Below the pieces are notes generated by a model. That model made no database searches. It was not told the DNA's origin and saw only the letters and a program-made list of their open reading frames with translations. A DNA stretch of 64,000 bases, taken from Xanthobacteraceae bacterium (GTDB lineage Bacteria > Pseudomonadota > Alphaproteobacteria > Rhizobiales > Xanthobacteraceae). The stretch lies in NCBI GenBank assembly GCA_019635585.1, contig JAHBZE010000002.1, forward strand, positions 682,001-746,000, read 5' to 3'. Every line of letters starts with the position of its first letter. Position 1 is the stretch's first letter. A program made the translations under genes and the position numbers. This document shows positions 2,519 through 62,865 of this stretch, piece by piece.

Positions 2519-2559
2519 TTGACGTGAATCAATGGCGATTTTCCCGCAGACCCTATTCT
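2519..2559 (+). promoter_or_regulatory. FNR/FixK-type promoter before phasin-like gene
   Basis: TTGACGTGAATCAA at 2519-2532 matches the FNR/FixK consensus TTGAT-N4-ATCAA at nine of ten positions. A possible -10 (TATTCT) lies at 2554-2559. The inferred start near 2566 puts the box centre about 41 bases upstream, the usual class II activator position. Base match is seen; regulator binding is inferred. Confidence 0.65.
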
Positions 2560-2580
2560 TTAAAAAAATAGAGATATTCC

Positions 2581-2931
2581 ATGAGCTTTGTTCCGCAGGG
2601 AATTATCGATTCGTCCGCCGTTCTTGGCAGTCTTCGTGTCGGCTTCGCGAATAATGTTCACGCCAGTGAGCATCTGTTCGGAGTGACGCTCGACTCCGCA
2701 GGCGAAATCGCCCGCCAGTCTGCGATCTACGCCGACACCGCTATCTTGTCTGCCATCGAACTGCAGCAGCATCTCCTGGAGGCGAGAACGTGTCGCGACG
2801 TCTGGACCCAAATGGCCGACCACAACGGGCGCCTGCACGACGCTTACTTTAAGTTTTTGCACGAATGCTTCGCCTGCCGTTCGCGTGCCATCGAACGGCT
2901 GACGACCGGAGGCAGCTATGTTGAAAGCTGA
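2581..2931 (+). CDS. Phasin-like small protein (hypothetical)
   Basis: A 116-residue helical protein with no signal peptide. The segment AIELQQHLLEARTCRDVWTQ followed by a stretch with HDAYFKFLHECF resembles the phasin family, in which amphipathic helices coat polyhydroxyalkanoate granules; the match is by eye only and the family is loose. Its last 14 bases overlap the start of the universal stress protein gene, whose Shine-Dalgarno lies inside this ORF, so the two are probably translationally coupled. An FNR/FixK box sits 49 bases upstream of the ATG. Phasin-like proteins often sit in stress and low-oxygen clusters of alphaproteobacteria, which fits the neighbours. The granule role is an inference. 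Confidence 0.65.
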   Translation: MSFVPQGIIDSSAVLGSLRVGFANNVHASEHLFGVTLDSAGEIARQSAIYADTAILSAIELQQHLLEARTCRDVWTQMADHNGRLHDAYFKFLHECFACRSRAIERLTTGGSYVES

Positions 2932-3811
2932 AACAAAAATGCCCCAAAAGTCAGTCACAGTGCCGGTCATCAACCGCGATACCGGAATGTTCCGCAGCAT
3001 TGCGTTGCCGCTTGTAACGCACGCCAACGGCTTCAGTACCAACGCTTACGCATTATCGATCGCGGAGATGTTTGGGGCATCCATTCAGGGCTTTGCGTTC
3101 GCTTTCGATCCCTTAATCCCGGTTACCGGGCCGTTTGAAACGCCGCCTCCCGCCCTGATCGATGAGTTGTTGGCACGCAGTGAAAGCGAGGCGCGCGCCA
3201 ATGCAACCGCATTCGAGCGCCAGGCAGAGCGGACGGCGGTTAGCGTCCAAACGCAGATCATTCCGGCTGGCATGAGCGAAGCGGTTCATACTTTCGCAGC
3301 GACAGCCCGCAGCTTCGACCTCTCGATCGTACCGCAATACAAATCGGAAGATTCAAGCCTCCCGAATTTCGCTGAAGTTGTACTATTCGAATCCGGCCGT
3401 CCACTGATCGTCGTCCCCTACATTCAACATGCCGCAGCCTCGTTAAAGCGGATACTTGTCTGCTGGGACGGCAGCCGTGCCGCGGCAAGAGCGATATCGG
3501 ATGCGTGGCCGATACTCGAGCGTGCCGAAACAGTCGATGTAGTGACTGCCGGACACGAGAATGTCGTCATGGAACTGCAACATGGTCTCGGACAGCACTT
3601 CGCGCAGCACGGCGTGAATGCTCGCCTTCAGGCTCTGCCCGTGAACGACATCGATATTGCGAACGCAATTCTTTCTCACGCCGCCGACAATAATGCGACG
3701 ATGATCGTAATGGGCGGCTATGGTCACAACCGGATGCGGGAGTGGATTCTCGGTGGGGTAACACGTACCATACTCAGGACCATGACGGTCCCGGTGCTGA
3801 TTTCCCACTGA
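2918..3811 (+). CDS. Universal stress protein, two-domain UspA family
   Basis: A 297-residue cytoplasmic protein made of two Usp folds, roughly residues 20-150 and 155-297. The second repeat begins RILVCWDGSRAAARAI and ends with the nucleotide-binding loop pattern GGYGHNRMREWILGGVTRTI and the typical VPVLISH terminus; the first repeat is more degenerate. The ATG at 2918 is chosen because GGAGG at 2908-2912 sits at ideal spacing, although another ATG occurs at 2939. It overlaps the phasin-like gene by 14 bases and would share its FNR/FixK promoter. Usp proteins of this kind accumulate in growth arrest, hypoxia or other stress; the exact ligand and role here are unknown. Confidence 0.88.
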   Translation: MLKAETKMPQKSVTVPVINRDTGMFRSIALPLVTHANGFSTNAYALSIAEMFGASIQGFAFAFDPLIPVTGPFETPPPALIDELLARSESEARANATAFERQAERTAVSVQTQIIPAGMSEAVHTFAATARSFDLSIVPQYKSEDSSLPNFAEVVLFESGRPLIVVPYIQHAAASLKRILVCWDGSRAAARAISDAWPILERAETVDVVTAGHENVVMELQHGLGQHFAQHGVNARLQALPVNDIDIANAILSHAADNNATMIVMGGYGHNRMREWILGGVTRTILRTMTVPVLISH

Positions 3812-3820
3812 GCACCGTAC

Positions 3821-6502
3821 CTAGGGATTCAGCGGCAAGCGCACAATCTTGATATCGGCCTCATCAACATTCGATGAAATCGTAAACCCGAGTTTCGCGC
3901 ACATCGCCAGCATAGTCGTATTTTCCGCAAGCACCTGACCTTCGATAACCTTAAGGCCTTCGGACTTGGCATAACGGATGATCAAATCCATAAGTTTCCA
4001 GCCGAGACCCTTCCCTTTAAGGTCGGATCTGACCAGAATTGCATACTCGCCGGTTTCGTAATTTGCGTCCGCATGTAACCGCACGACGCCAAGCAGTTTT
4101 TCGTTTTCGTCCAGGGCAGCGAATGCCATGGCTCTCGCATAATCGAGCTGCGTGAGACGGGCCAAAAAAGCATGTCCGGGGCTTTTCGTCATATTGAAAA
4201 AACGCAGCCGCATGTCGCGGTCGGTGATTTGCCCGAGAAAATCTTTCACCAGACTTTCGTCTTCAGGCCGTAACGGCCGGACGAAAATTCTCTTGCCGCC
4301 GTACTCGAGAAATTGCTCCCATTCGTTCGGATAGGCACGGATGGCGAGATGAGCGCTGCGCTTCGAGAATTGTACCGCCCGGATCAACACACGTGAATCG
4401 AGCGCGACGATCCGCTCGGCATTAACTAGCACCGGGTTAATGTCGAGTTCGACGATCTCGGGAAAATCGGAAATCAACTGGCTGAGCTTGACGAGCAATG
4501 CTTCAAGCTCATCCCGTTTCGCCGCCGGCACGTTGCGATAAGCATTAAGAAGCTTCGAAACCCGGGTTTGATCGATCAGGGAACGCGCGAGATTGAGGTC
4601 CAGCGGCGGAAGCGCAATCGCCTTGTCTCCGACGACTTCCACTGAAACACCGCCTTGCCCAAAAACGATTACGCGCCCGAATGCAGGGTCGTCGGCGACC
4701 CCCACGATCACCTCACGGGAATTTGGGAGGTTGATCATCTCCTGAACGAGAATTCCGCCGATCGCGGCATCGGGGCGCAGCTTTCTAACTCTTTCAAGAA
4801 TTTCCTCCGCGGCTTCTTCCGCTTCCTCTGGCGACTTGATATTCAGCCGGACGCCCCCGACATCTGACTTATGAACAATATCCGGCGAAAGAATTTTCAA
4901 GACCAAACTTGAGCTCTTCGCCAGCAACGCACTTGCGATTGTGCGCACTTCTTGCGCGCCCGTCGCAATATCCGAAGCCACTACCGGAATTCCGTAGGCT
5001 ATAAGCAAGCTCTGAATTTGCTCGGGCATGAGCCATTGCTGGCCCGCCGCCAATGCGCCGCGCAATATGCCCGCGACCTTTTCCCGGTCCGGTTTGAAGC
5101 CACCTGCGAGCTTTGGCGGGGTCGCGCGGAGCGCTTCCTGAGCTTGCGAATAGCGAACGAGCTGCGAGAACGCCTGAACCGTGGCGCTCTCGGTGAGAAA
5201 CAACGGGATTTTCGCGCCGCTGAATATTTCGCGCACTGACGGATTGTCGGCGACCCAAGTCGCCAGTACCGGCTTCGCGGGAAAAACTGCCCGGCTGTTT
5301 CGCCGGTATTCGTCGGCAACTCGCCTTGCGATCTCAACCGGAGAAGCCAACGCCGTCGCGACGTTCATCACAATGATGCCGTCCGTGTCCCGATCTTCGA
5401 GCAGGCGTTGCATCGCAAAGCCATAGCGGTCCGGATCCGCGTCGCCCACGATATCGATCGGATTGCCGTGCGACCAGTTTGGAGGCAATCCCTGATCAAG
5501 CGATCGGATCGATTCCTCGGATAGCGTCGCAAGTTTTCCGCCGAGTTCGATATGCTCATCGACGGCAAGCACGCCGAGACCTCCGCCATTCGTCAGAATT
5601 GCCAGGCGCTCGCCCTTGAAGGGGGGAATTGCGCTCAGAATTTCTACCGCCTGGAAGAGTTGCGCGAGATCGTGAACACGCAGCAAGCCCGCTCGCTGAA
5701 ACGCAGCGTCATAGACGGCGTCCGATCCCGCCATCGCACCGGTATGGGTTGCCGCAGCCTTGGCGCCTTGCTCGAAACGTCCCGCCTTGAGAACCACAAC
5801 CGGCTTCGAGCGGGCTGCAATGCGCGCAGCCGACATGAATTTTCGCGCGTCCTGAACCGACTCCACGTACATAAGGATTGCGCGCGTGTGATGGTCGCCC
5901 GCGAAGTGATCCAGAAGATCGCCAAAATCCACGTCCATCTGGTCGCCGACCGAGACGATAGACGTAAATCCGATACCTCGCGGCTCCGCCCATTCGATCA
6001 CGCCGGAAACAATCGCCCCGGATTGGGAAATCAGCGCAAGGTCGCCTGCCTTGGGCATATGTGCGGCAAAGCTCGCATTCAATCGGGAGGATGGCGTCAG
6101 CACACCGATGCAGTTCGGGCCTACGATTCGCAGACCATGGCGCCGCGCATTCAGGCGCGCCTGCTCGAAGCAAGATCCCTCGCCGCGCCCGAGGCCGGAA
6201 CTAACAATGACCGCGGTCTTGCAGCCGTGGCTGCCAAGTTCTTCGATTAGACCCGGAATCGAGTTCGCCGGCGTTGTAAGCACAGCGAGATCAGGCGCCG
6301 CAGGCAGGTCTCCGACCGACTTCACAGCCGAAATGTTCAGTAGGCTCGAGTGTTTGTTATTCACCAGAAAGATCGGCCCGCCGAACTCGGCTTGGCAAAT
6401 ATTCTTGAGAACCGCTAAACCGACCGAGGTATCGCGATTACTGCCGCCGATTACGGCGACGGAGCGCGGCGCAAGAAGCTGGGTAAGCCTATAAGTGGAC
6501 AT
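3821..6502 (-). CDS. Acyl-CoA synthetase (ADP-forming)-like / GNAT acetyltransferase
   Basis: An 893-residue protein of the Pat/PatZ architecture. In order: CoA-binding Rossmann domain (about 8-130, SVAVIGGSN), succinyl-CoA-ligase-like domain (about 150-300), ATP-grasp domain (about 480-700, with VHKSDVGGVRL) and a C-terminal GNAT domain (about 735-893, KGKGLGWKLM as the acetyl-CoA loop). The histidine phosphorylated in true ADP-forming acetyl-CoA synthetases appears present near residue 253 in THTGAMAGSD. Family knowledge: PatZ/Pat proteins acetylate lysines, notably of acetyl-CoA synthetase; enzymes keeping the histidine may also make acyl-CoA. The gene is divergent from the BT1 transporter with 47 bases between starts, and an FNR/FixK-like box overlaps that region. 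Confidence 0.88.
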   Translation of the reverse strand: MSTYRLTQLLAPRSVAVIGGSNRDTSVGLAVLKNICQAEFGGPIFLVNNKHSSLLNISAVKSVGDLPAAPDLAVLTTPANSIPGLIEELGSHGCKTAVIVSSGLGRGEGSCFEQARLNARRHGLRIVGPNCIGVLTPSSRLNASFAAHMPKAGDLALISQSGAIVSGVIEWAEPRGIGFTSIVSVGDQMDVDFGDLLDHFAGDHHTRAILMYVESVQDARKFMSAARIAARSKPVVVLKAGRFEQGAKAAATHTGAMAGSDAVYDAAFQRAGLLRVHDLAQLFQAVEILSAIPPFKGERLAILTNGGGLGVLAVDEHIELGGKLATLSEESIRSLDQGLPPNWSHGNPIDIVGDADPDRYGFAMQRLLEDRDTDGIIVMNVATALASPVEIARRVADEYRRNSRAVFPAKPVLATWVADNPSVREIFSGAKIPLFLTESATVQAFSQLVRYSQAQEALRATPPKLAGGFKPDREKVAGILRGALAAGQQWLMPEQIQSLLIAYGIPVVASDIATGAQEVRTIASALLAKSSSLVLKILSPDIVHKSDVGGVRLNIKSPEEAEEAAEEILERVRKLRPDAAIGGILVQEMINLPNSREVIVGVADDPAFGRVIVFGQGGVSVEVVGDKAIALPPLDLNLARSLIDQTRVSKLLNAYRNVPAAKRDELEALLVKLSQLISDFPEIVELDINPVLVNAERIVALDSRVLIRAVQFSKRSAHLAIRAYPNEWEQFLEYGGKRIFVRPLRPEDESLVKDFLGQITDRDMRLRFFNMTKSPGHAFLARLTQLDYARAMAFAALDENEKLLGVVRLHADANYETGEYAILVRSDLKGKGLGWKLMDLIIRYAKSEGLKVIEGQVLAENTTMLAMCAKLGFTISSNVDEADIKIVRLPLNP

Positions 6503-6549
6503 GGAAACCCGCGTAACGACCTGGATCGTCTAACAGGACTTCAACAGCC

Positions 6550-8061
6550 GTGGTTGATCAAGCTCAAAACGCTAGCGGCGCGCCAGACGGAAAATCTCCC
6601 TCGCTCCTGTCGGGCCTCTATGAGGCAATCATTCGGCCGCTAGCCGCGCTGCGGCTGCGATACGCCCCGCTCCTTCTCGTTTACTTCAGCTATGGCGCCC
6701 TTGGGCTAATCGACATCAGTCGCGATCTCTGGGTGAAAGAACAGTTGAACATTTCGCCCGCCGAACTCGCGGCCATCGGCGTCTGGCTGACCCTGCCGTG
6801 GACCATCAAGATGGTATTTGGCCAGCTCGTCGACAGTGTTCCTATTTTCGGCTCGCAGCGGCGAGTTTATATCGTCGCCGGCGCGTTGCTTATCGCTGGA
6901 GGATTGGTGACGCTCGCGGGCGCTGCTGGCGGGTGGCTCCAGTTTTTATCGCGCACTGGACTATTCGTGCTGGGATCCATTCTTGTCGTGCTTGGCACCG
7001 TCGTTCAGGACGTCGTTGCCGATGCCATGTCGACCGAAGTCGTCCCCCGCGTGCAAGAAGACGGTCAACCACGCGACGAGCAGGAAGTCCGCGCGGATCT
7101 CGGCATGGTGCAAGTACTCGGCAGACTTGCATTGTCCGCGGGTATTTTGGCCGTTGCGGGCCTCTCCGGCTGGATCGCGGCGATTCTGAGCCGCGAGACG
7201 GTCTTTCTGGTCGCGCTTATTGTGCCGGCGCTTTCGCTTCTTGGCGCGTTCACGGCATCGGAAAAAGAAATCGAACGGCGACCGATCGACCTGCGAATCC
7301 TGCTCGGCGGGCTGGCGTTCGGAATCGTCGTGGTCACGACAGGACTACTCGGCGTACCATTTGCGCAAGAGATCATTTTTATGATCTCTATGACCGTGGT
7401 CTGCGTCATGCTCGTCATGGTTACGGCCGACGTCGAACCCGAACACCGCCGCGCGATATTCTTCACCGCGATTATTATTTTCGCATTTCGCGCAATGCCG
7501 GCAGTCGGAGATGGCTATTTTTGGTGGACCATCGATGTCCTCAAGTTTGACGAGTCATTCTATGGCGTCTTGCGTCAAACCGCGGCGGTACTCTCGATCG
7601 TTGTATTGTGGATTTTCGCGAAACAGCTGACCGAGTACTCCATTCCCGCCGTCCTGTTCTGGCTAACGGTCCTCGGCACGGTATTGTCGATTCCGAACGT
7701 AGCGCTCTATTACGGGCTACATCATTGGACCGAGGCGAACTTCGGCTTCGGTGCACGTTCCATTGCAATCGTGGACGCGGCCACCGCATCTCCATTCGCG
7801 CAGCTGAGCATGGTCCCGCTATTGGCACTGATCGCCTATTATGCGCCGGCCGGGAAGCGCGCGACCTGGTTCGCCCTTATGGCCTCGCTCATGAACCTCG
7901 CGTTGGTGGCGGGTCAGCTATCGACGAAATATCTCAATCAGTATTTTGTGATAGCGCGCGGCGACTATTCACAGCTCGGTGCCTTGCTGGTCAGCGTCGT
8001 GCTTGCGGGATTCATCATACCGATAGCCGTGATTGGACTTCTCGGCAGAAAAATTCGGTAG
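6550..8061 (+). CDS. BT1/folate-biopterin-type MFS transporter
   Basis: A 503-residue membrane protein with about twelve hydrophobic segments. The stretch LPWTIKMVFGQLVDSVPIFG followed by SQRRVYI matches the signature loop of the BT1 (folate-biopterin transporter) branch of the major facilitator superfamily; LWVKEQLNISPAELA before it is also typical. The substrate is not predictable; in bacteria most members are uncharacterised. The start is GTG at 6550, with AGGA about 12 bases before it and no in-frame ATG before the first membrane segments. It overlaps the 3' end of the convergent CBS gene by 47 bases. An FNR/FixK-like box lies over codons 2-6. Confidence 0.8.
   Translation: MVDQAQNASGAPDGKSPSLLSGLYEAIIRPLAALRLRYAPLLLVYFSYGALGLIDISRDLWVKEQLNISPAELAAIGVWLTLPWTIKMVFGQLVDSVPIFGSQRRVYIVAGALLIAGGLVTLAGAAGGWLQFLSRTGLFVLGSILVVLGTVVQDVVADAMSTEVVPRVQEDGQPRDEQEVRADLGMVQVLGRLALSAGILAVAGLSGWIAAILSRETVFLVALIVPALSLLGAFTASEKEIERRPIDLRILLGGLAFGIVVVTTGLLGVPFAQEIIFMISMTVVCVMLVMVTADVEPEHRRAIFFTAIIIFAFRAMPAVGDGYFWWTIDVLKFDESFYGVLRQTAAVLSIVVLWIFAKQLTEYSIPAVLFWLTVLGTVLSIPNVALYYGLHHWTEANFGFGARSIAIVDAATASPFAQLSMVPLLALIAYYAPAGKRATWFALMASLMNLALVAGQLSTKYLNQYFVIARGDYSQLGALLVSVVLAGFIIPIAVIGLLGRKIR
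6554..6567 (-). promoter_or_regulatory. FNR/FixK-like box upstream of Pat-like gene
   Basis: TTGATCAAGCTCAA matches TTGAT-N4-ATCAA with one mismatch. It lies inside the first codons of the BT1 gene but about 40 bases upstream of a plausible minus-strand start near 6521, with a weak -10 (TTAGAC) at 6533-6528. It is therefore assigned to the minus-strand gene. It is the weakest of the four boxes because it falls in coding sequence. Confidence 0.4.
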
Positions 8062-8515
8062 TCGCTGCGGTCGAATCGGCGAGCGCACGCATAATATCCT
8101 CGCGGGAGATTACGCCGACCAATCGGCCTTCGCTCACCACCGGAAAACTCCTCGTCTTCGTATCGACCATCTTCTGCAATACGCGGGTGAGCGGCATATC
8201 CGGCGTAACGGTGAGAAGCTCATCACGCATCAGCATTCGCACTGGCGTCTTCATGAGCGAAAGGTAGTCCGGAAGCGGGTGTTCGTTCGTAAACGCAAAA
8301 GCCCGCATAAAATCGAATTTGGAGAAAACCCCGATCAGGCTTCCTTCTTCCAGCACGGGCATCAGGTTGAAATCATGATGCGCGAAAAGGCTGCCGGCCT
8401 CGCGGAGCGTGGCATCGGGCGAGAGCGACAGCACTTCGGTGGTCATGTAATCGGCCACCTTCCTCTCGTAGAAGCTACGGGTTGTACCTTCTTTCTCTTC
8501 CGCACTAATTCTCAT
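8015..8515 (-). CDS. CBS-domain pair protein
   Basis: A 166-residue soluble protein made of two CBS motifs: about residues 20-75 (VADYMTTEVLSLSPDATLREA, then LIGVFSKFDFMRAF) and 90-150 (VRMLMRDELLTVTPDMPLTRV, then LVGVISREDIMRAL). CBS pairs bind adenosine nucleotides and sense energy state; the partner is unknown. Its ATG overlaps the stop of the cytochrome c gene in an ATGA, so the two are translationally coupled and probably transcribed from the FNR/FixK box at 9013. Its 3' end overlaps the convergent BT1 gene by 47 bases. Cytochrome c with a CBS protein recurs in low-oxygen gene sets; a direct link is inference. Confidence 0.85.
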   Translation of the reverse strand: MRISAEEKEGTTRSFYERKVADYMTTEVLSLSPDATLREAGSLFAHHDFNLMPVLEEGSLIGVFSKFDFMRAFAFTNEHPLPDYLSLMKTPVRMLMRDELLTVTPDMPLTRVLQKMVDTKTRSFPVVSEGRLVGVISREDIMRALADSTAATTEFFCREVQSRLSV

Positions 8516-8847
8516 CGGTGTTCCTTCGATAGCTGTTCGAGATACTCGATGATGGGTCCAATCTCATGCGGCTCGAATGTAACAATTGGCATATCCGGAT
8601 GGCCGGTCATTATGCCTTCTGCCAGCGCCTCGGCAAGCGTGTCCGGCGAGTACCGCTTTACGATGTTCCGAAATTCCGGTGCGCGTGGGTGACGGCTCCG
8701 GTCCGAGGGACCGATCGCATGACAACTGGCACAACGCTGACGAAGCAACTCATTCCCGAATTCTTTTGAACTCTGTTGGGCAAAGGAACTTGGCGCAAAC
8801 GCGAGCAGTCCCAATGCCACCAGAACTGTCTCGCGCTTGATGCTCAT
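8512..8847 (-). CDS. Small periplasmic c-type cytochrome
   Basis: A 111-residue exported monohaem cytochrome c. The N-terminus MSIKRETVLVALGLLAFAPS with SFAQQ after it is a Sec signal peptide; the haem site CASCH follows at about residue 40, and the Met region GHPDMPIVTF supplies the likely sixth ligand. An upstream in-frame start would add 18 charged residues before the signal peptide, so the ATG at 8847 is preferred; GAGCGGG precedes it. It would carry electrons in the periplasm between respiratory complexes. It is the first gene of a pair with the CBS protein (ATGA overlap), about 165 bases downstream of a perfect FNR/FixK box, suggesting low-oxygen expression. Confidence 0.87.
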   Translation of the reverse strand: MSIKRETVLVALGLLAFAPSSFAQQSSKEFGNELLRQRCASCHAIGPSDRSRHPRAPEFRNIVKRYSPDTLAEALAEGIMTGHPDMPIVTFEPHEIGPIIEYLEQLSKEHR

Positions 8848-9012
8848 ATGTACCCGCTCACGCCGCTTGGACTGAAACTTTGTAAAGCGACCGCCACGCA
8901 TTGCCGGTTGCTTCTCTGCCTTCGGTCTTGACCGGAAATTTCGTTACAGGAATTTACCAGAATGCCGCTCCATCGAACGAAAGACCAATAATGTGCGCGT
9001 CAGTCCAATGCT

Positions 9013-9026
9013 TTGATTTTTATCAA
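9013..9026 (-). promoter_or_regulatory. Perfect FNR/FixK box upstream of cytochrome c gene
   Basis: TTGATTTTTATCAA is an exact TTGAT-N4-ATCAA palindrome. On the minus strand a possible -10 (CATTAT, 8993-8988) lies at the distance expected for an activator at about -40. The rest of the 8848-9060 gap shows no other gene or hairpin. Confidence 0.72.
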
Positions 9027-9060
9027 TGGTATCGCCGGCTAATTTTTGACACAGATAGAA

Positions 9061-10269
9061 TTATAGCAACGAAAATCCTATCATTCCGAGTGCCGTAACA
9101 AGGCCAAGGATCGGCACCCAAACTGGCACGACTAGGCCGGCGTGCCGCGGATGAATGAATTTCAGGCGTAGCAACGACAGATTGACCAGCGCGAACACAA
9201 CAAGGGTTGCCAACGACGTAAGTTCGGCGAGCCTCACCAGCGGCACGAATGCAGCAAGACAAAAGACCATTACCGAGGTAATTCCGGTTGCGATCAGGGG
9301 TGTTCCGGTCAGATGATTTACGTGGCCCAGTTGAGCCGGTAAATCTCCCTGCCGGGCCATTCCGTAGATTACGCGTGAAGCCATCGTCATCTGCGCAATG
9401 ACCGTGTTCAAGGTCGCACTGATTGCGACGGCGCTGATGGCGGGCGCGCCAAATCCCGCCACTTCGTGAAAGACCATCGCAAGCGGAGCGTTGCTTTGCG
9501 CGAGCTTCTCGATCGGAACGGCAGTGACCGAGATCGCTCCGATCAGCATATAGAGCGAACAGGAGATAACGAGCGTAAGAAGCATCGCCAACGGTACGTT
9601 GCGGCTCGGCTCATGTGCCTCCTCGACAACATTCACCAAATCTTCGAACCCGATGAACGCAAAGAAAGCCAACAGGGCTCCCAGAAAAATTCCGGCGACG
9701 ATATCCGGCTCGAAAGGAGGCACTGCAAACAGAGTGCTGCCGAATGGCACTCCGGCCTTCGCCGCCGCGGCGATAATCGCCACCAGCGCGCCAACTTCGA
9801 TCAGCGTAAGCACGCTCGTTAGGACGACCGACTCGAGAATTCCCCAAGCGGTTATAGCCGTGACAAGAAGAACAACGCCGATCGTCAAATATTCGCGGGG
9901 TATACTTACAAACTCCGAAATATAGCCGACCGCCCCCAACGTCACGGCGGCAGAAGCAACCACGCCAATGATAATCGTGAGACTTCCGGTCAAGAAGGAT
10001 AATGTGCCCGAGCGAAAGGCAGCCTTTACATAGGCCGCTTCGCCTGCGGCAACGGGAAACCGCGTGCACAACTCGGCATAGGAAGCCACGCTTAGAGCCA
10101 TCACGATTCCGGCAAGAGCAAAGGCGAGCGGCGCGTAAGTTCCTGCGTGTCCGGCGATCGTGCCGATCAGTACATAAATTCCGGCGCCAACCGTGATTCC
10201 AGTGCCGTAGAGCACGAGAAGAGGAAGGCCGAGCCGCCGGCGAAGTTGTCCTTTTGGAGCCGCGCTCAT
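9061..10269 (-). CDS. APC-family amino-acid permease
   Basis: A 402-residue inner-membrane transporter with about twelve hydrophobic helices. The first helix carries YGTGITVGAGIYVLIG, the unwound substrate-binding segment of the amino acid-polyamine-organocation superfamily, and FAFIGFEDLVNVVEEAHEPSRN is the conserved TM6 and following loop with its PxRxxP-like turn. Length is slightly short of the common 430-500 residues but both ends look complete. The substrate cannot be assigned. The start overlaps a short upstream ORF by ATGA. Expression may come from the FNR/FixK box at 10484. Its 3' end is followed by the cytochrome c promoter region. Confidence 0.85.
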   Translation of the reverse strand: MSAAPKGQLRRRLGLPLLVLYGTGITVGAGIYVLIGTIAGHAGTYAPLAFALAGIVMALSVASYAELCTRFPVAAGEAAYVKAAFRSGTLSFLTGSLTIIIGVVASAAVTLGAVGYISEFVSIPREYLTIGVVLLVTAITAWGILESVVLTSVLTLIEVGALVAIIAAAAKAGVPFGSTLFAVPPFEPDIVAGIFLGALLAFFAFIGFEDLVNVVEEAHEPSRNVPLAMLLTLVISCSLYMLIGAISVTAVPIEKLAQSNAPLAMVFHEVAGFGAPAISAVAISATLNTVIAQMTMASRVIYGMARQGDLPAQLGHVNHLTGTPLIATGITSVMVFCLAAFVPLVRLAELTSLATLVVFALVNLSLLRLKFIHPRHAGLVVPVWVPILGLVTALGMIGFSLL

Positions 10270-10469
10270 GTGATGGCCGCATTTTCATCAGCGGTTGGAA
10301 GTACCGCTGCGCCCTGAAAGCCGCCGTAACGAAGGCCGTCAATGGCCTTGCTGGTCCGTTCCAAGGAGTGGGTCGTAATGGTTGTCTTGATGTACATCGC
10401 GGTCAGTACGCGGAATAAATCAACGCCGTCCTGCTGCGTCAGATCGATTTCCTTGAAGCATATTGGCAT
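10266..10469 (-). CDS. Short ORF ahead of amino-acid permease (uncertain)
   Basis: A 67-codon frame, not recognised, ending in an ATGA overlap with the permease start. The overlap suggests translational coupling and is the main support. An internal ATG at 10397 would give 43 residues beginning MYIKTTITTHSLERTSKAID; this shorter form fits better if transcription starts near 10450 from the adjacent FNR/FixK box. No signal peptide, membrane segment or known motif is visible. It could be a leader that feeds ribosomes into the permease rather than a functional protein, or a chance frame. Confidence 0.35.
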   Translation of the reverse strand: MPICFKEIDLTQQDGVDLFRVLTAMYIKTTITTHSLERTSKAIDGLRYGGFQGAAVLPTADENAAIT

Positions 10470-10483
10470 ACCCTCGCATGCCC

Positions 10484-10497
10484 TTGATTCAGGTCAA
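10484..10497. promoter_or_regulatory. FNR/FixK box between two divergent transcripts
   Basis: TTGATTCAGGTCAA matches TTGAT-N4-ATCAA with one mismatch. Plausible -10 elements lie at similar distance on each side: TATGTT (10519-10524) on the plus strand toward the DUF3775 gene, and TATGCT (10463-10458) on the minus strand toward the permease. Each inferred start is about 40 bases from the box centre. The remaining 10498-10627 region holds no other visible feature. Confidence 0.6.
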
Positions 10498-10627: not shown

Positions 10628-11047
10628 ATGCGCGCGCCAGTATTCTCTCCCACTCTCGCAATCTCACTTGAAAAGGTTTGCTTCATCGCTTTGAAGGCGC
10701 GGGAGTTCGACGTGAAAGACGCGGTGAGCGATCCGGGAAGCGGCTCCAACGCATCAGACGACATGATGATCGACGTTCTGGAAGATCATCCGGACGATCC
10801 TACCTACTCGGAACTAAGAGTATTCATCAACGGCCTCACCGAAGACGAGCAGATCGATCTTGTCGCGCTCGCCTGGCTTGGACGCGATGACAACTCACCC
10901 GAGGATTGGCCGGAGCTCAGAAGCGAAGCCGAACGCGCTCACAACAAGCGCACTGCTTCCTATCTGCTCGGTATGCCGATGCTGCCGGACCAGCTTGAAC
11001 AAGCTCTGTCGATGCTGGGCCACAACTGCAGCGAATATGACCTCTAA
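10628..11047 (+). CDS. DUF3775 domain protein
   Basis: A 139-residue soluble acidic protein. The pattern LKAREFDVKDAV, then SNASDDMM, FINGLTEDEQIDLVALAWLG and YLLGMPMLPDQLEQ matches the DUF3775 family, common in alphaproteobacteria and of unknown function. No catalytic or metal motif is evident. It stands alone, divergent from the permease ORFs, with an FNR/FixK box about 130 bases upstream. The stretch to kdpE (11048-11133) contains no clear terminator. Family assignment is by remembered pattern. Confidence 0.82.
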   Translation: MRAPVFSPTLAISLEKVCFIALKAREFDVKDAVSDPGSGSNASDDMMIDVLEDHPDDPTYSELRVFINGLTEDEQIDLVALAWLGRDDNSPEDWPELRSEAERAHNKRTASYLLGMPMLPDQLEQALSMLGHNCSEYDL

Positions 11048-11133: not shown

Positions 11134-11820
11134 CTACCCTTCCATCCTGTAGCCAATTCCCGGTTCAGTCTTGATGATCGCTGGGTCGTCGGCGTTCTCT
11201 TCGATCTTCTGCCGAAGCTGCCCGATATAGACCCGCAAGTACTGCGTATCGCTCGTATGCGCCGCGCCCCATACAGCCGCGAGAATTTGCCGATGCGTGA
11301 CGACGCGGCCCGCATGCCGGACGAGGAACGCCAGCAGTTCAAACTCCTTCGGCGTCAGGTGTACCTCTTCGCCCGCGCGCGTTACGCGGTGTTTTACCGT
11401 GTCGATCTCTACGTTACCGATCCGCACTGCGGCAACTCCACCATCACGTTCGATGCGGTGACGTAAAGCCGCGCGCAAGCGAGCCATCAGTTCGCCGACA
11501 CCAAACGGCTTATTGACGAAATCGTCCGCACCGAGATCGAGTGCCTCGATCTTCTCGGCCTCGCGATCACGGGCAGAGAGAACGACAATCGGTATCTTCG
11601 ACCACTCGCGCACTTGCCGGATCACGTCCTTGCCATCGCCGTCTGGTAGCCCGAGATCGAGAACCACTACGTCAGGCGCCTTCGCGGCGATGCGCTGCAC
11701 GGCTTCTTTCACAGTACCGACAGCCTCGATTTCGTAGTTGTTCGCCTCAAGCGCGGGCTTGAGAAACCGCAGGATGGCGGGTTCATCATCAACTACGAGA
11801 ACGCGGGTTTTCGCGCTCAT
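11134..11820 (-). CDS. kdpE: KdpE, potassium-response regulator
   Basis: A 228-residue OmpR/PhoB-type response regulator that activates kdpFABC when phosphorylated by KdpD. The receiver domain (1-120) has the phospho-acceptor aspartate in VVVLDLGLPDGDG, the acidic pair in VVDDEPAIL and the conserved lysine in VNKPFGVGEL. The winged-helix DNA-binding domain (about 130-226) ends TEPGIGYRMEG, as in KdpE proteins. The start overlaps the kdpD stop by ATGA. It is the last gene of the kdp run, so sensor and regulator lie at the 3' end of the transporter operon. Confidence 0.95.
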   Translation of the reverse strand: MSAKTRVLVVDDEPAILRFLKPALEANNYEIEAVGTVKEAVQRIAAKAPDVVVLDLGLPDGDGKDVIRQVREWSKIPIVVLSARDREAEKIEALDLGADDFVNKPFGVGELMARLRAALRHRIERDGGVAAVRIGNVEIDTVKHRVTRAGEEVHLTPKEFELLAFLVRHAGRVVTHRQILAAVWGAAHTSDTQYLRVYIGQLRQKIEENADDPAIIKTEPGIGYRMEG

Positions 11821-14477
11821 GGCGTTGCCTTCGCGCGCGGGAAGGTCAGCGTGAAAAGCGCACCACGGCCCGCCATGACCGGACTTGCCACTTCGATCTG
11901 ACCGCCGTGTGCCTGCATAATACCCTTCGCGATCGCTAGACCGAGGCCGACACCGTCGCTTGGCGTGCGCGTCGAACCGGGCCGGAGATTCGATACGAAC
12001 CTATCGAACACATGGGCAAGCTCATCTTTTGCGATGCCGGGACCATCGTCCGCGATCTTAAGCATTATGCGATCATCTGCGATCTCGGCGGAAATCATCA
12101 CCGATGTCTTCGGCGGCGTATGCGACACCGCATTCTGCAAGACGTTACCAACGGCCTGCTCGGCCAGCAGCGCATCTGCTCGCACAAGCGGAAGATCTTG
12201 AGGCAATGATACACTGATCCCGTGATCGGATTGCGCCCGGCGTGCGGTAGCCACGACGCGATCTATAATCTCACGAAGATCAACCCAATCCTTCCGTACT
12301 TCCAAGCCGCCTGCGTCGATACGGGTTATAGAAAGAAGGTTCCGCACCATCCCGTCGAGATGCGTAGCCTCATTCTTGATCTGCGCAAGCAACTCGCGCT
12401 TAGCGTTTTCGTCGAGCTTGCCGCCATAGTCGAGGATACTCGTCGCCGAGCCGAGGATCGATGCCAGCGGCGTCCGGAAGTCGTGTGAGATAGACGCAAG
12501 CAGCGTGTTACGCACCTTCTCGGTTTCAGCAGCCGCCTTTGTATCGATGATCTCGCCGCTCATGTTAGCGCGTTCGAGCGCGGCGGCTGTTTGTTCGACA
12601 AGAGTATCGAGAAGCGCCCGCGTTTCTGCGTCGACCCCGCTCTGCAACACGCCGACGACGCCCAACTTCGTTCGCGGCGTTCGCAATGGGACGAACAACC
12701 AAGCCACAGTCGGCAGAGTTGCGGTACCCGCACCTGCAGGCTCGTCTCGTTCCGCCGCCCATCGTGCAGCGCTCATGCTTGCGAGATCGAGCTCATCGAG
12801 CGGCGGCCAGGCCGCTGCGAGTTTTAGACTACTCGCGTCATCAAGCAGAATCGCGGTCGGAGCCTGAATACTCGAATGTATCTCGGTCGCAGCCGCTTCC
12901 GCTATGTCGTTAAACGAAGCGAGGCCCGACAGCTTTCGCGTGAAATCGTAAAGTCTGCGGGTTGCGAGCGTTCGAGAGGCGGAAGCCTTAGCCTGCTCTC
13001 GCGCGCGACCTGCGAGCGCGGACGTAAGAACGGCTACGGCGAGAAATACAACGAGCGCGAACAGTTCATGAGGCTCTGCAACCGTGAAGGTGTAGGTAGG
13101 CTCGATAAAAAAGAAATTATAAGCAAGAAACGAAAGTATCGAGGCGTAAATCGCCGGAACGACGCCGAATGTTACCGCAGCGAACAATACCGTGAGCAGA
13201 AACGCCATCGATATGTTCGGCAGCCGCGTAATTGCAGAAAGTGCAAGCCCGATGCCGACTGCCGTTGCGACTGCAACGGTTGACCATGCATAAGGCGCGA
13301 AAGCCCACTGCATCGTGGGAAGCCGCCACCGATCAGCACGGCGCTGCTCAACGCCTGCGGAAACGAAATGCACCGCTATGTCCCCCGAACGCCGCAGGAC
13401 TTCGTGCGGTAGAGAGCTGCGAAATAGTCCGGCGATGAAACGACCTCTGTTCTTACCGATGACGATCTGCGTGACGTTCTCAAAGCGGGCGAAACGAACA
13501 ATCTCGTCCGCAAGATCATTGCCGACGAGTGTCTTCGTCTCCGCCCCAAGCGATTCCGCGAGTTTCAGCGCCTCGCCGACGTTGCGCCGTTGACCGGTCG
13601 TGAGCACAGTTTCCGATCGCTCCGCCGTCGCCACGATCCACGGCGCGGCCATGATGTCGGCAAGGCGCTTTGCGGCTCGCACTACGCGCTGGGCGCTTTC
13701 GTCAGCCCCGACGCAGGCCAGGATTCGTTCTCCGGCCGCCCACGGCCCTTCTATTGCGCCCGCCTGCATATCGCCGACGAGATCGCTATCAACGCTTTCG
13801 GCTGCGCGACGAAGCGCAAGCTCACGAAGTGCTTTCAGGTTTTGTGGCTTGAAAAAATTCGCCGCGGCTTGAGTTGCGGTATCTTGAACGTATACCTTTC
13901 CGCCAGCTAACCGCTTGATCAGTTCGTCGGGTGGAAGATCAATAAGCGCAATTTCATTAGCCTGCTCGAACACGCGGTCCGGAATGGTTTCTCGAACGCG
14001 GACCTTCGTAATCTTCTGAATCACGTCGTTGAGACTTTCGAGATGTTGCACGTTCAAAGTAGTCCAGACATCGATGCCCGCTGCAAGAATCTCCTCAATA
14101 TCCTGCCACCGTTTCGGATGTCTTCCGCCAGGAACGTTCGTGTGTGCATATTCATCGACCAGGATAAGCTGCGGCTTGCGTGCAATCGCCGCGTCAAGAT
14201 CGAACTCATGCATAACGCGGTTCTGATAGATGAGCGGCTTGCGTGCCAGCACCTCAAGTCCCTGGACGAGCGCCTCGGTTTCGCGGCGTCCGTGCGTTTC
14301 GACAAGGCCGACGACGACTTCGCGGCCTGCCTCCAACTCGGCGCGCGCGGCGGCAAGCATCGCGTAGGTTTTGCCTACACCAGGCGCGGCGCCAAGAAAA
14401 ATCTTCAGGCGTCCACGCCCCTCGCGGTTCGCGCGGGTCAAGAGGGCATCGGGGGAGGCTCTAAGTTCTGCGGGCAT
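11817..14477 (-). CDS. kdpD: KdpD, potassium/turgor sensor histidine kinase
   Basis: An 886-residue membrane kinase of the usual KdpD length. Domains in order: N-terminal KdpD domain with Walker A GAAPGVGKTYAM (about 30-41) and DEYAHTNVPGGRHPKRW; a Usp-like segment (about 250-370); a four-helix DUF4118 membrane block (about 395-500); a GAF-like region; HisKA with the phosphorylated histidine in SISHDFRTPLASIL; and HATPase with DDGPGIAKDEL and GVGLGLAIAKG. Known role: senses low K+ and ionic conditions, and phosphorylates KdpE. It lies 21 bases after kdpC and overlaps kdpE by ATGA. Confidence 0.95.
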   Translation of the reverse strand: MPAELRASPDALLTRANREGRGRLKIFLGAAPGVGKTYAMLAAARAELEAGREVVVGLVETHGRRETEALVQGLEVLARKPLIYQNRVMHEFDLDAAIARKPQLILVDEYAHTNVPGGRHPKRWQDIEEILAAGIDVWTTLNVQHLESLNDVIQKITKVRVRETIPDRVFEQANEIALIDLPPDELIKRLAGGKVYVQDTATQAAANFFKPQNLKALRELALRRAAESVDSDLVGDMQAGAIEGPWAAGERILACVGADESAQRVVRAAKRLADIMAAPWIVATAERSETVLTTGQRRNVGEALKLAESLGAETKTLVGNDLADEIVRFARFENVTQIVIGKNRGRFIAGLFRSSLPHEVLRRSGDIAVHFVSAGVEQRRADRWRLPTMQWAFAPYAWSTVAVATAVGIGLALSAITRLPNISMAFLLTVLFAAVTFGVVPAIYASILSFLAYNFFFIEPTYTFTVAEPHELFALVVFLAVAVLTSALAGRAREQAKASASRTLATRRLYDFTRKLSGLASFNDIAEAAATEIHSSIQAPTAILLDDASSLKLAAAWPPLDELDLASMSAARWAAERDEPAGAGTATLPTVAWLFVPLRTPRTKLGVVGVLQSGVDAETRALLDTLVEQTAAALERANMSGEIIDTKAAAETEKVRNTLLASISHDFRTPLASILGSATSILDYGGKLDENAKRELLAQIKNEATHLDGMVRNLLSITRIDAGGLEVRKDWVDLREIIDRVVATARRAQSDHGISVSLPQDLPLVRADALLAEQAVGNVLQNAVSHTPPKTSVMISAEIADDRIMLKIADDGPGIAKDELAHVFDRFVSNLRPGSTRTPSDGVGLGLAIAKGIMQAHGGQIEVASPVMAGRGALFTLTFPRAKATP

Positions 14478-14498
14478 CAGGTTTCCTGCCCCGCCATT

Positions 14499-15101
14499 TT
14501 ACGGCTTTGAGCGGTCCAACGCGAGATTGAGCTTGAGTACATTGACACGCAATTCGCCAAAGACTCCAAGAAAACGGCCTTCGGTATGCTCAGCAACAAG
14601 CTGCGCAACACGCTCAATCGGCAGTCCCCGGGCGCCTGCAACGCGCGCGACCTGCAATGCGGCGTAGGCAGGCGAGATATGCGGATCTAGCCCGCTTGCC
14701 GAAGCCGTGACGGCGTCAGCCGGAAGCCGCTTGCCGCCGGATTCTTTTGCGAGCTGCTCCGCATCTGCCTTGATCCGGTCAATTAATTTCTTCGACAGCG
14801 GGCCGAAATTCGAGCCGGAAGAATTCGCCGCGTTATATGGCGCGTCGATAGTCTTGGTATCATCTTTCGGATCAGGCGCAACAGTCGCCGACAACCTGGC
14901 CCTGAAATACCGGTCGGATGTAAAGTTCTGCCCGATTAGTTCGGAGCCGACTATTTGATCGCCGCGCAAAATCAAGCTGCCGTTTGCCTGTGCGGGCATT
15001 ACGGCCTGCGCAACGCCCGTTACCGCGAGCGGATAGCAAATTCCGGTGAGCACGGTCATCAGAATGAGAAGAACGAATGCTGGGCGAAGATGAACAAACA
15101 T
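14499..15101 (-). CDS. kdpC: KdpC, K+-transporting ATPase subunit C
   Basis: A 200-residue single-pass subunit of the KdpFABC complex. The N-terminal helix MFVHLRPAFVLLILMTVLTG, the region GSLILRGDQIVGSELIGQ with NF and YFRARLSA, and the C-terminal DPHISPAYAALQVARVA are hallmarks of KdpC. The ATG at 15101 is preferred over an upstream TTG at 15119 because AGGAAG lies eight bases before it; the gap to the kdpB stop is then ten bases. KdpC stabilises the complex and aids ATP binding by KdpB. Confidence 0.95.
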   Translation of the reverse strand: MFVHLRPAFVLLILMTVLTGICYPLAVTGVAQAVMPAQANGSLILRGDQIVGSELIGQNFTSDRYFRARLSATVAPDPKDDTKTIDAPYNAANSSGSNFGPLSKKLIDRIKADAEQLAKESGGKRLPADAVTASASGLDPHISPAYAALQVARVAGARGLPIERVAQLVAEHTEGRFLGVFGELRVNVLKLNLALDRSKP

Positions 15102-15111
15102 GGCTTTCTTC

Positions 15112-17166
15112 CTACGCAAGGCCTAACACGGCGACGGTTAGATCGACGAGCTTGATACCGGCAAACGGAAGTAGGATACCGCCGAGCCCGTAGATCAAGA
15201 GGTTTCGGCGCAGAAGCGATGCCGCGCCTGCGGAACGATATTGAACGCCGCGCAGCGCAAGAGGGATTAGCGCGATGATGATCAGAGCGTTGAAGATTAC
15301 AGCCGAAAGTATTGCGCTCTTTGGCGTCGCGAGATGCATAACATTCAGGGCCTGTAGTTCGGGATAGGTCACGACGAAGAGAGCCGGGATAATCGCAAAA
15401 TATTTTGCGACATCGTTCGCAATCGAGAACGTTGTAAGCGATCCGCGTGTCATTAGAAGTTGTTTGCCGATCTCAACGACCTCGATAAGCTTCGTCGGAT
15501 TGGAGTCGAGATCGACCATATTTCCGGCTTCGCGCGCGGCCTGTGTGCCGGTCTGCATTGCGACGCCTACGTCCGCCTGCGCGAGCGCAGGAGCGTCATT
15601 CGTGCCGTCGCCGCACATGGCGATCAGGCGTCCGTTCGCCTGCTGTTCGCGGATATAGCGGAGCTTGTCCTCGGGCGTCGCTTCCGCGATGAAATCATCA
15701 ACGCCTGCCTCCGAAGCGATCGCCGCGGCTGTCACAGGATTATCGCCGGTCACCATCACGGTGCGGATACCCATACGGCGGAGTTCACCGAAGCGTTCCT
15801 TAATCTCCCCCTTTACGACATCCTTGAGGTGAATGACTCCAAGCAAACGCGCGCCATCGGCAAGCGCGAGCGGCGTACCGCCCGACTGTGCAATGCGATC
15901 GACTGCGCCACGGAAGTTCGCCGGTTCGGTCTTATTGCCTTCGTTTGCGCAGAATTTGAGCACAGCATCGACCGCGCCTTTGCGTAGCTTGTGTCCGCCG
16001 ACATCAACACCGGATAGCCGCGTTGATGCCGAGAACACGATCAGTTTCATATCATTCGATTTCGCAGTAGCCGATAGATTGTATTTTTCCTGCGCAAGCG
16101 AAACGATTGAGCGGCCTTCCGCCGTCTCGTCGGCAAGACTTGCGAGCCATGCAGCCTCGACAGCTTCCTTTTCCTGTACACCCGCTACCGGAATGATTTC
16201 GGTTGCCTGGCGATTGCCGAAGGTAATCGTGCCGGTCTTGTCGAGCAGAAGCGTATCGACGTCTCCCGCCGCCTCAACTGCCCGCCCCGACGTCGCAATG
16301 ACATTGAAGCGGATCAGACGATCCATCCCCGCAATACCGATTGCGGAAAGCAGGCCGCCAATCGTCGTCGGGATTAACGTCACGAGCAAAGCGATAAGAA
16401 CCGTCAGCGAAAGCTCCGTGCCGGAGTAACCGGCAAGCCCCCACAATGTGGCAACCGCGATCAGGAAGATCAGCGTCATTCCCGAAAGCAGGATAGAAAG
16501 CGCAAGTTCGTTCGGGGTCTTCTGTCGTTCCGCGCCTTCGACAAGCGCAATCATACGATCGAGAAAGGTCGAGCCCGCTTCGGCGGTGACTTTCACCTTA
16601 ACCCAGTCCGAAACAACGGTAGTGCCGCCAGTAACGGCAGAGCGGTCGCCGCCGGCCTCGCGGATCACCGGTGCGGACTCCCCGGTTATCGCCGCCTCAT
16701 TAACGGTGGCGACACCTTCGACGATTTCGCCGTCGGCGGGAATGAGATCGCCAGCCTCGACCAACACGATGTCGCCGATTCGCAGTTCGTCGGCCGCGAT
16801 GTGTTCGACAGCCTCGTCGACGATACCAGGAACGGCAAGGCGCTTCGCCATCACGTTCGAGCGCATGCCGCGAAGCGTCGCCGCCTGCGCCTTGCCTCTG
16901 CCCTCTGCTACCGCTTCCGCGAAGTTCGCGAATAGGACCGTGAACCAAAGCCACGCTGCGATCTGCCCGGAAAACGCAGGATCGCCGCTGCCGGTCACGA
17001 ACTCGCGGACGAAAATCGCGGTAACGACCGCTGCGACAATCTCCGTAACGAAAATCACCGGGTTACGGACGAGTTTACGCGGATCGAGCTTGATCAGCGC
17101 GTCGATAGAGGCCCGCCAGAAAATTGCGGGGTCGAAGAGAGAGGCCGCTTGAAGTTTCGATGCCAT
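15112..17166 (-). CDS. kdpB: KdpB, K+-transporting P-type ATPase catalytic subunit
   Basis: A 684-residue P-type ATPase. The phosphorylated aspartate is in [15 protein letters not shown], the TGES-type actuator loop is [18 protein letters not shown], and the hinge motif is [20 protein letters not shown]. Membrane helices flank these domains as in the family. It hydrolyses ATP to drive K+ through KdpA. GAGG lies just upstream of the ATG, and the gene follows kdpA after ten bases. All key residues appear intact. Confidence 0.96.
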
Positions 17167-17176
17167 GTTTGCCTCC

Positions 17177-18886
17177 TCAGAAAGTCTTGCCCGCGAGCAT
17201 CAACAGATGCTCGACAATCGGGCCGAGTGCGAGCGCGGGAAAGAATTGCAGGCCGCCGACGATCAGGATCACGCCTATAAGCAACCCGACAAACAGCGGC
17301 GTATGGGTCGGGAACGTACCTGCGGATGCGGGTGAGCGCTTCTTTGCCGCCAGCGAACCTGCAATCGCCATCATCGGCACGATATAAGCGAACCGGCCGA
17401 GGAGCATCGAGATGCCAAGCGTAGTATTGTACCATTTCGTATTCGCGCTCAGCCCCGCGAAGGCAGAGCCGTTGTTACCGGTCGCAGACGAATAGGCGTA
17501 GAGAATCTCGCTTAAGCCGTGCGGCCCGTTATTCGCGAGACTTTCCAGCGCGAACGGCAAATTTGCAGCCGCTGCGGAAAACCCGAGGATACAAAGCGGC
17601 AATATCAGCACCGCGAACATTGCGAGTTTCATCTCACGCGCTTCAATTTTCTTTCCCAGATACTCGGGCGTGCGGCCGACCATAAGTCCCGCGATGAAGA
17701 CAGCGAGGATTGCGAAGATCAGCATGCCGTACAGGCCGGAGCCGACGCCGCCTGGAAGCACCTCGCCGAGCTTGATCATGATCAGCGGTATCATGCCGGC
17801 CAGCGGCGTGAACGAGTCGTGCATCGCGTTAACCGCGCCGCACGAAAGACCCGTGGTGACCGCGGCGTAGAGCGCCGACATAACGACGCCGAAGCGAACT
17901 TCCTTGCCTTCAAGGTTGCCGCTGGACGGATCGATGCCGAACGCAGCGAAAGCCGGATTGCCGCCCGCCTCAGCCCAATAAGCTATGCCAACACCTGCGA
18001 CCAGAATCACAAGCATCGCCAAAAGCAGCGCCCAGCCTTGGCGCGTATCTCCCGCCATCTTGCCGAAGGTGTAGGGCAACGATGCCGAAATCGCGAGCAT
18101 CGCCCATATCGAAATCAGATTACTGATCGCATTCGGGTTCTCGAACGGATGCGCGGAATTCACGTTGAAGAAGCCGCCGCCGTTCGTGCCGAGCTGCTTG
18201 ATCGCTTCCTGCGACGCGACGGGACCGATAGCGATGGTTTGCGCCGCACCTTCCAGCGTTTTCACATCTACAGACGCGAGCAGGGTTTGCGGCAGGCCGC
18301 TCGCAACAAACGCGAGCGCGACGATAACCGAAAACGGCAGCAGAACGTAAAGTGTCGCGCGGGTCATGTCGACCCAGAAGTTTCCGACATATGCCGCGCC
18401 GGATCGGGCGAACGCGCGCACAAAAGCGATCGCGAGCGCGATGCCTGTTGCGGCAGATAGGAAGTTCTGCACGGTGAGCCCGGTCATTTGCGCGAAGTGG
18501 CTCATCGTCGTTTCGCCGCCATACGCCTGCCAATTCGTATTCGTAACGAAACTGATCGCGGTGTTGAACGCGAGATCGGGAGCGACCGCGGAGAATCCTT
18601 GCGGGTTCAACGGAAAGAAGCCTTGCAAGCGCAGGATCAGGTAGAGCAGCAGAAAGCCTGCGGCGTTGAAGACAATCATTGCGACCGTGTAGGCGAACCA
18701 TCCCTGTTCTTTCGCGGGGTCGACGCCCGCGAGCCGATAGAAACCGCGCTCAATGGGGCCGAGTACAATCGTAAGCGGCGTACGTTCACCCTGAAACACG
18801 CGCGCCATGTATCCACCGAGCGGCTTCACGCAGACGAGCACGAGCGCGAATAGAATGCCGATTTGCAGCCAGCCGATTGCGGTCAT
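17177..18886 (-). CDS. kdpA: KdpA, K+-binding and translocating subunit
   Basis: A 569-residue polytopic membrane protein of normal KdpA length. It has the four channel-like repeats, with filter-type segments such as [32 protein letters not shown] and [13 protein letters not shown], and the conserved block [13 protein letters not shown]. It supplies the high-affinity K+ path of KdpFABC. The ATG at 18886 follows GGAGA and lies 24 bases after the kdpF stop, so kdpF-A-B-C-D-E form one transcription unit. Confidence 0.96.
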
Positions 18887-44483: not shown

Positions 44484-45363
44484 GTCTCACGTCGCGACCC
44501 TCGTTAGCAATCCCGTTCGCCCTGCGGTCGATGCCGCGGCGATTGCGAAGGCGCGCGCGCTCTTGCCCAATGCGATTTCCGAAACGGTACTGAAGCCGGG
44601 GATTGCCGCTGATATCCTCTTCGCGCCCGGCCCGGACGCAAAGGAGCACGAACTAAGCGATCTCGTCCGCGCGGCCCTCGCGCCTGCGCCGGTCGATATC
44701 GTGGTGCAGGAAACCGCGTTCCGCCGGAAGAAGCTGTTCGTCGCCGACATGGATTCGACCATGATCGACCAGGAGTGCATCGACGAGCTTGCCGACTATG
44801 TGGGCCTGAAGGCGCATGTCGCAGCGATCACCGAGCGCGCGATGCGGGGCGAACTTCCGTTCGAGCCAGCCTTGCGCGAGCGCGTGGCACTCCTGAAAGA
44901 CCTGCCGCTTTCGGTAATCGAGGAGACTATCCGTGCGAAAATTACGCTCGCCGCCGGTGGCAAGGAACTGATCTCCGCGCTCAAGGCCAACAGCGTCTAC
45001 ACTTGCCTGGTCTCCGGAGGCTTCACGCTATTTACGAACGTGATCGCGGAGAAACTCGGCTTCGACGAGAACCGCGCGAACGAACTGCTGCTCGAAGACG
45101 GCAAGCTCACAGGCAAGGTGAAGGAACCGATCCTCGGCCGCGCTGCGAAGCTCGCGACCTTGCAGGAACTCACTTCGCGGCTCGGGATCCGTCCGGAAGA
45201 AACCATCGCGATCGGCGACGGCGCCAACGACCTCGACATGATCACAGCGGCCGGCTTGGGCGTCGCGATCCATGCGAAGCCCGCGGTCGCAGCCACAGCG
45301 CAGGCGCGCATCGACCACGCCGATTTGAGCGCGATTATCTATTGCGGGGGTTTCTCCGCCTAG
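44482..45363 (+). CDS. serB: Phosphoserine phosphatase
   Basis: A 293-residue HAD enzyme, the last step of serine synthesis. Motif I is VADMDSTMIDQECIDELADY (nucleophile Asp), motif II is CLVSGGFTLFTN, and motifs III/IV are KVKEPILGRAAK and IAIGDGANDLDMITAAGLGV. The N-terminal 70 residues match the alphaproteobacterial SerB extension. The start MSHVATLVSNP is chosen by similarity to homologues; no good ribosome site precedes it. Its stop overlaps the convergent kinase gene by four bases. Confidence 0.94.
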   Translation: MSHVATLVSNPVRPAVDAAAIAKARALLPNAISETVLKPGIAADILFAPGPDAKEHELSDLVRAALAPAPVDIVVQETAFRRKKLFVADMDSTMIDQECIDELADYVGLKAHVAAITERAMRGELPFEPALRERVALLKDLPLSVIEETIRAKITLAAGGKELISALKANSVYTCLVSGGFTLFTNVIAEKLGFDENRANELLLEDGKLTGKVKEPILGRAAKLATLQELTSRLGIRPEETIAIGDGANDLDMITAAGLGVAIHAKPAVAATAQARIDHADLSAIIYCGGFSA

Positions 45364-60809: not shown

Positions 60810-60837
60810 CGCGCCTCAAATAAGAGCCAACATTACT

Positions 60838-62865
<2,028 letters not shown>

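Follow-up and report, generated by a model that had tools for sequence, protein, structure and literature searches.

Does a group of TTGA-N6-TCAA palindromes near the start of a 64,000-nucleotide stretch of DNA from a Xanthobacteraceae bacterium (hereafter the window; C2:682001-746000 of a 3.208-Mb genome in two contigs, C1 and C2) mark a set of genes under a FixK-type low-oxygen regulator? Inspection of the sequence revealed four exact copies of this box, at 2519, 6554, 9013, and 10484, precisely where the original prediction, which proposed a compact FNR/FixK-type regulon, had placed them. They are interspersed with genes for a small protein of 116 residues (ORF116), a universal stress protein (Usp), a Pat-type protein, a cytochrome c, a CBS-domain protein, an amino-acid permease, and a DUF3775 protein. 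Judged from sequence and gene context, this island is quite probably a FixK-type low-oxygen regulon. It appears to be a real low-oxygen island, given that the same pairing of switch and genes recurs in relatives, though for the most part an ordinary one. A compact regulon of the proposed type is well supported by genes of the regulatory cascade, by boxes at oxidase genes, and by this recurrence; the phasin and the carbon storage that the prediction had included are not supported.

Box frequency and recurrence in relatives

The window contains five exact sites, whereas 100 dinucleotide shuffles of it averaged 0.63 and none reached five. The fifth, at 60806, had no place in the original claim; lying directly before a thiamine pyrophosphate (TPP) riboswitch (60837-60933), it is doubtful as a member of the regulon and is probably a chance site. 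Genome-wide, there are 64 exact sites (63 of which were located) and 16 sites for the control, the same pattern read backwards. When 64 sites were placed uniformly in 4,000 simulations, a cluster of four within 7,965 bp was unusual, arising anywhere in 2.7% of the runs; the genome holds two such four-box clusters: the window island and C2:837664-841119.

For five genes of the island, we searched -400 to +20 of the inferred start for the box in the best 30 matched loci per gene (for DUF3775, the best 30 of 73) from a draw of 149 genomes of the family, taken from a larger group; genome G149 lies outside the family draws. The boxes proved partially conserved upstream of related genes, with 8 (Pat), 10 (DUF3775), 13 (Usp), 17 (CBS), and 10 (cytochrome c) of 30 loci bearing one. 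As a control, eleven palindromes made by permuting the box letters gave, in the same order, 0, 2, 0, 0, and 1 matches in 330 tests each (3/1650 in total), and a 420-base coding stretch gave 0, 0, 0, 2, and 2 of 30. Subtracting the window's own loci left 7, 9, 12, 17, and 9 of 29. The inferred starts are rough, with two cytochrome c boxes falling at +6.5 and -9.5. Ten further Pat loci have a box farther upstream (within about 1.5 kb), and in four genomes (G050, G005, G046, and G089) this farther box precedes a CBS gene located directly before Pat.

It is highly improbable that four unrelated palindromes merely happened to fall where the base composition favours them. Taken by itself, an exact match counts for little, because many genomic boxes lie inside open reading frames (ORFs), and some 0.63 exact sites would be expected per 64 kb in any case. 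However, no window shuffle attained the observed number and the recurrence in relatives is far above that of the permuted controls. Since exact matches alone are weak, the case for a regulon is carried by context and recurrence.

In the congener G085, a CBS gene with a box, BT1 (beside Pat), Pat, Usp, and ORF116 form a group close to a ccoN-type gene that has a box of its own; the Pat promoter of G085 reads TTGC-N6-TCAA, one mismatch from the strict form and inside the published consensus. Both G085 and a second congener, G104, likewise have a box upstream of the ORF116-Usp pair. Within 20 kb of G104 there are a radical-SAM gene (hemN-like by reading of its sequence), fixK, fixL, fixJ, ORF116, Usp, CBS, cytochrome c, and permease genes; eight boxes lie in this stretch, one of which falls within the fixL ORF. 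FixK is present at 71-100% identity in five of the eight genomes of the genus; G063 gave no match, and G121 and G137 gave only matches of 27-28%. At the thresholds used, searches of these three genomes for Pat, Usp, CBS, cytochrome c, and DUF3775 were negative as well; G137 is only 72% complete.

Genes adjoining the four boxes

The features of the island are listed in Table 1. Box 1 precedes ORF116 and Usp and, at 55.5 bp, would serve this pair; box 3 precedes the cytochrome c and CBS genes and would serve them as one unit; the true cytochrome c start may lie inside the called ORF. Box 2 overlaps the GTG with which the gene of the BT1-family transporter begins, with the Pat ATG on the opposite strand. 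Despite this overlap it most likely serves Pat, since its distance of 58.5 bp is close to those of Pat boxes in two relatives (-55.5) and in Sinorhizobium meliloti (-62.5). The earlier gene assignment of this box is corrected to this extent: Pat, not the transporter, is probably served, and the transporter is not clearly a member of the regulon.

Table 1. Boxes and genes of the island, with positions in the window
Feature	Position	Strand	Remarks
Box 1, TTGACGTGAATCAA	2519..2532	unstranded	Centre 55.5 bp 5' of the ATG of the 116-aa ORF (ORF116)
ORF116 (116 aa)	2581..2931	+	Predicted two-helix hairpin; gene earlier called phasin-like
Universal stress protein (Usp)	2918..3811	+	Pfam PF00582
Pat-type protein	3821..6502	-	Pfam: ADP-forming acyl-CoA ligase domains and C-terminal GNAT
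BT1-family (folate/biopterin-type) transporter	6550..8061	+	Pfam PF03092
Box 2, TTGATCAAGCTCAA	6554..6567	unstranded	Centre 58.5 bp 5' of the Pat ATG; overlaps BT1 gene start
Two-CBS-domain protein	8015..8515	-	Pfam PF00571; 3' of cytochrome c gene
Small cytochrome c	8512..8901	-	Pfam PF00034
Box 3, TTGATTTTTATCAA	9013..9026	unstranded	Centre 118.5 bp 5' of the longest cytochrome c ORF
Amino-acid permease	9061..10269	-	Pfam PF13520; divergent from DUF3775
Box 4, TTGATTCAGGTCAA	10484..10497	unstranded	Centre 137.5 bp 5' of DUF3775
DUF3775 protein	10628..11047	+	Pfam PF12616; predicted all-helical

Box 4 lies between the divergent permease and DUF3775 genes and would serve DUF3775, perhaps with the permease as a second target, as the permease homologue of G104 (63% identity) likewise has a box upstream. 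Alternatively, only some of the boxes may work, box 4 acting on the permease alone and DUF3775 lying outside the regulon in this organism. G104, which retains the permease box, gave no DUF3775 match, and the 137.5 bp between box 4 and DUF3775 exceeds the distance at seven of the nine other loci that have a box close by (taking the nearest at each locus). Nevertheless, the ten of 30 DUF3775 loci with a box carry it at -55.5 to -164.5, and -10-like hexamers (4/6) flank box 4 on both sides, making such partial function improbable. Box 4 is also the window box nearest to a group of genes beside the island (11134-18886, minus strand) comprising a response regulator gene followed by genes that look like kdpD, kdpC, kdpB, and kdpA, these four names being taken from reading of the sequence.

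ORF116 had been described as a phasin-like protein. This was not borne out: it has no Pfam match up to E = 1 and no NCBIfam match, and its predicted two-helix hairpin has no match in the Protein Data Bank (PDB) at E 0.001. Homologues occur in three of the 149 family genomes, counting that of the window; the three genomes are of the same genus, and in each the gene stands directly before Usp. The proposed link of the island to carbon storage falls with it, because it depended on the phasin identity.

Far from the island, the window also encodes two adjacent large ORFs (45360-49741, minus strand) that both combine a protein-kinase domain with TPR repeats and may be a duplicated pair of Ser/Thr kinases.

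Candidate regulators and related regulons

Six proteins of the genome pass the HTH_Crp_2 cut-off. One, encoded at C1:230167, is FixK-like, with an ETVSR helix that fits the E-x-x-S-R recognition helix, which we take to be the mark of the right regulator type. Divergent from its gene are genes for a FixL-like kinase (60-63% identity to the FixL of relatives) and a FixJ-like protein (52-60%), the three lying together at C1:230-233 kb, so that by sequence a FixLJ pair is encoded upstream of FixK. The only cysteine of the FixK-like protein is residue 233, near the C-terminus; it therefore lacks the N-terminal cysteine cluster of classical, iron-sulfur (Fe-S) controlled FNR. A separate Crp-type protein (L019, minus strand, C1:218874) has clustered N-terminal cysteines (C-x2-C-x6-C) and a recognition helix that departs from E-x-x-S-R.

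Respiratory genes elsewhere in the genome bear the box as well. Its centre lies 80 bp from the called start of cydA (assigned by Pfam) and 82 bp from that of a COX1-family gene, which is probably of the ccoN type, judging by the G085 gene that it matches at 84% and by the neighbourhood there. A PNPOx-like gene and a YgaP-type gene are also box-bearing, and a pyridoxamine-oxidase-family gene appears on the FixK2 list of Bradyrhizobium diazoefficiens (PMC9104804).

We propose that the FixL-like kinase would sense falling oxygen and phosphorylate FixJ, which would switch on fixK; FixK would then bind the four boxes and activate four units, namely ORF116-Usp, Pat, cytochrome c-CBS, and DUF3775 (perhaps together with the divergent permease). 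We infer binding, activation, and the oxygen response of the island genes, as well as the role of FixK rather than a Dnr-like protein as the main binder. The second four-box cluster bears on this last point. In 3.5 kb (locus L031, 3665-7120) it surrounds the gene of another of the six HTH_Crp_2 proteins, at C2:838250, which has two boxes upstream and, as neighbours, an MFS transporter gene and a CBS-BON gene; from its ENLSR helix we presume it to be Dnr-like. Were this regulator, responding to nitric oxide or anaerobiosis, the main binder, FixK would be secondary. The motif cannot tell the two apart; PMC2908626 describes the alphaproteobacterial FNR, FixK, and DNR motifs as virtually identical and places Usp genes in the predicted lists of both FNR and DNR. 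Yet the G104 island is physically partnered with fixK-fixL-fixJ and a FixL-like kinase precedes Pat on the S. meliloti plasmid pSymA, and we consider a leading role of the Dnr-like protein unlikely.

That pSymA stretch, with seven boxes in 20.7 kb, resembles the island in its Pat homologue (45% identity). A box stands at -62.5 from this Pat gene, and directly before the gene are those of a FixL-like PAS kinase (41% to FixL) and a regulator of the Crp type. The stretch differs in that CBS, DUF3775, and cytochrome c found no match there, and its Usp matches are partial and weak (33-40%). The FixK2 regulon of B. diazoefficiens shares the box and the regulator type. Usp, CBS, GNAT, cytochrome c, and PNPOx-like genes are among its microoxia-induced or FixK2-dependent genes (PMC6515984 and PMC9104804). 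Transcripts raised in microoxia include the GNAT protein bll6068, Usp bll6069, CBS blr6074, and phaC2, of which the last three, and not bll6068, are marked as FixK2 targets in PMC6515984. That bll6068 is the Pat homologue is a guess, because B. diazoefficiens is represented here by gene descriptions and not by DNA comparison. The regulon differs from the island in gene set and order, and ORF116 is limited to one genus in our draw; furthermore, FixK2 is controlled through C183, while the single cysteine of the window's FixK is at 233.

Several observations weigh against a FixK-type regulon. Allowing one mismatch leaves a weak window excess (24 sites vs. 16.6, with 8 shuffles reaching 24), and the looser published consensus TTGM-N6-KCAA gives none that is significant (7 vs. 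4.95, with 24 of 100 shuffles reaching 7), so that boxes upstream of genes exceed chance with the exact pattern and not with the looser one. Of the 58 boxes located elsewhere in the genome, crude ORF calling puts 39 inside ORFs and 19 outside them. The -10 evidence is weak: the elements predicted about 40 bases from each centre appear as TATAAT matches of only 4/6 at three boxes and 3/6 at the Pat box (gene-facing side, 27-37 bp from the centre), and 14.5% of random positions match at 4/6 or better. No box occurs within about 1.5 kb at 12 of the 30 Pat loci. The congener G023 has FixK at 85% but only a DUF3775 match (42%) with no box near, its Pat, Usp, CBS, and cytochrome c being unmatched despite FixK. 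Among NCBIfam models, that of Caulobacter FixK fits the FixK-like protein best, but its score of 234 bits falls short of the 300-bit cut-off. Finally, the recurrence counts are not independent, the genomes being related, and orthology is unproven for Usp and cytochrome c, which belong to multi-member families.

Pat, DUF3775, and the reach of the island

The freshest points are the box-linked DUF3775 and a Pat that keeps the histidine of ADP-forming ligases. With ADP-forming ligase domains joined to a GNAT domain at the C-terminus, the window Pat has the make-up of the Pat protein acetyltransferases, and it is this domain make-up that suggests protein acetylation by the island. Residues 3-884 align, at nearly full length, with its closest solved relatives, the protein acetyltransferases 9it0 and 9isq. 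These two differ from it in lacking an HTG stretch in the alignment, which is present in the ADP-forming 4-hydroxybutyrate ligase 8wzu and the archaeal protein 2csu and is kept in the window Pat (with His253) and in 30 of 30 Pat loci. We take the histidine of this stretch to be the phospho-histidine of the ligase family. Because Pat retains it, one could tentatively imagine a bifunctional enzyme under FixK control, which at low oxygen would use acetyl-CoA or a different acyl-CoA to form ATP and, through its GNAT domain, acetylate metabolic enzymes, although we regard this as doubtful. Our literature searches found no published FixK-Pat link beyond the B. diazoefficiens table: the passages covered of PMC6191541 do not place Pat under FixK, and the main text of PMC4999443 mentions none of universal stress, acetyl, CBS domain, phasin, or usp.

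DUF3775 was aligned over 27 of its 30 loci (L117, L121, and L133 left out), and a PDB fold search with its helical model gave no match at E 0.001. A full-text search of one paper library for the name DUF3775 turned up a single paper, on an insect.

The idea of a FixK-type regulon is itself already established. What the island supplies is a list of low-oxygen genes outside respiration that can be put to the test, in which DUF3775 is singled out as a recurrent neighbour of the box, and it raises the question of whether alphaproteobacterial Pat-type enzymes are still ATP-forming ligases at low oxygen. If the bifunctional Pat were true, the island would bring protein acetylation and a DUF3775 factor together with substrate-level ATP production in one family-wide programme of microoxic survival.

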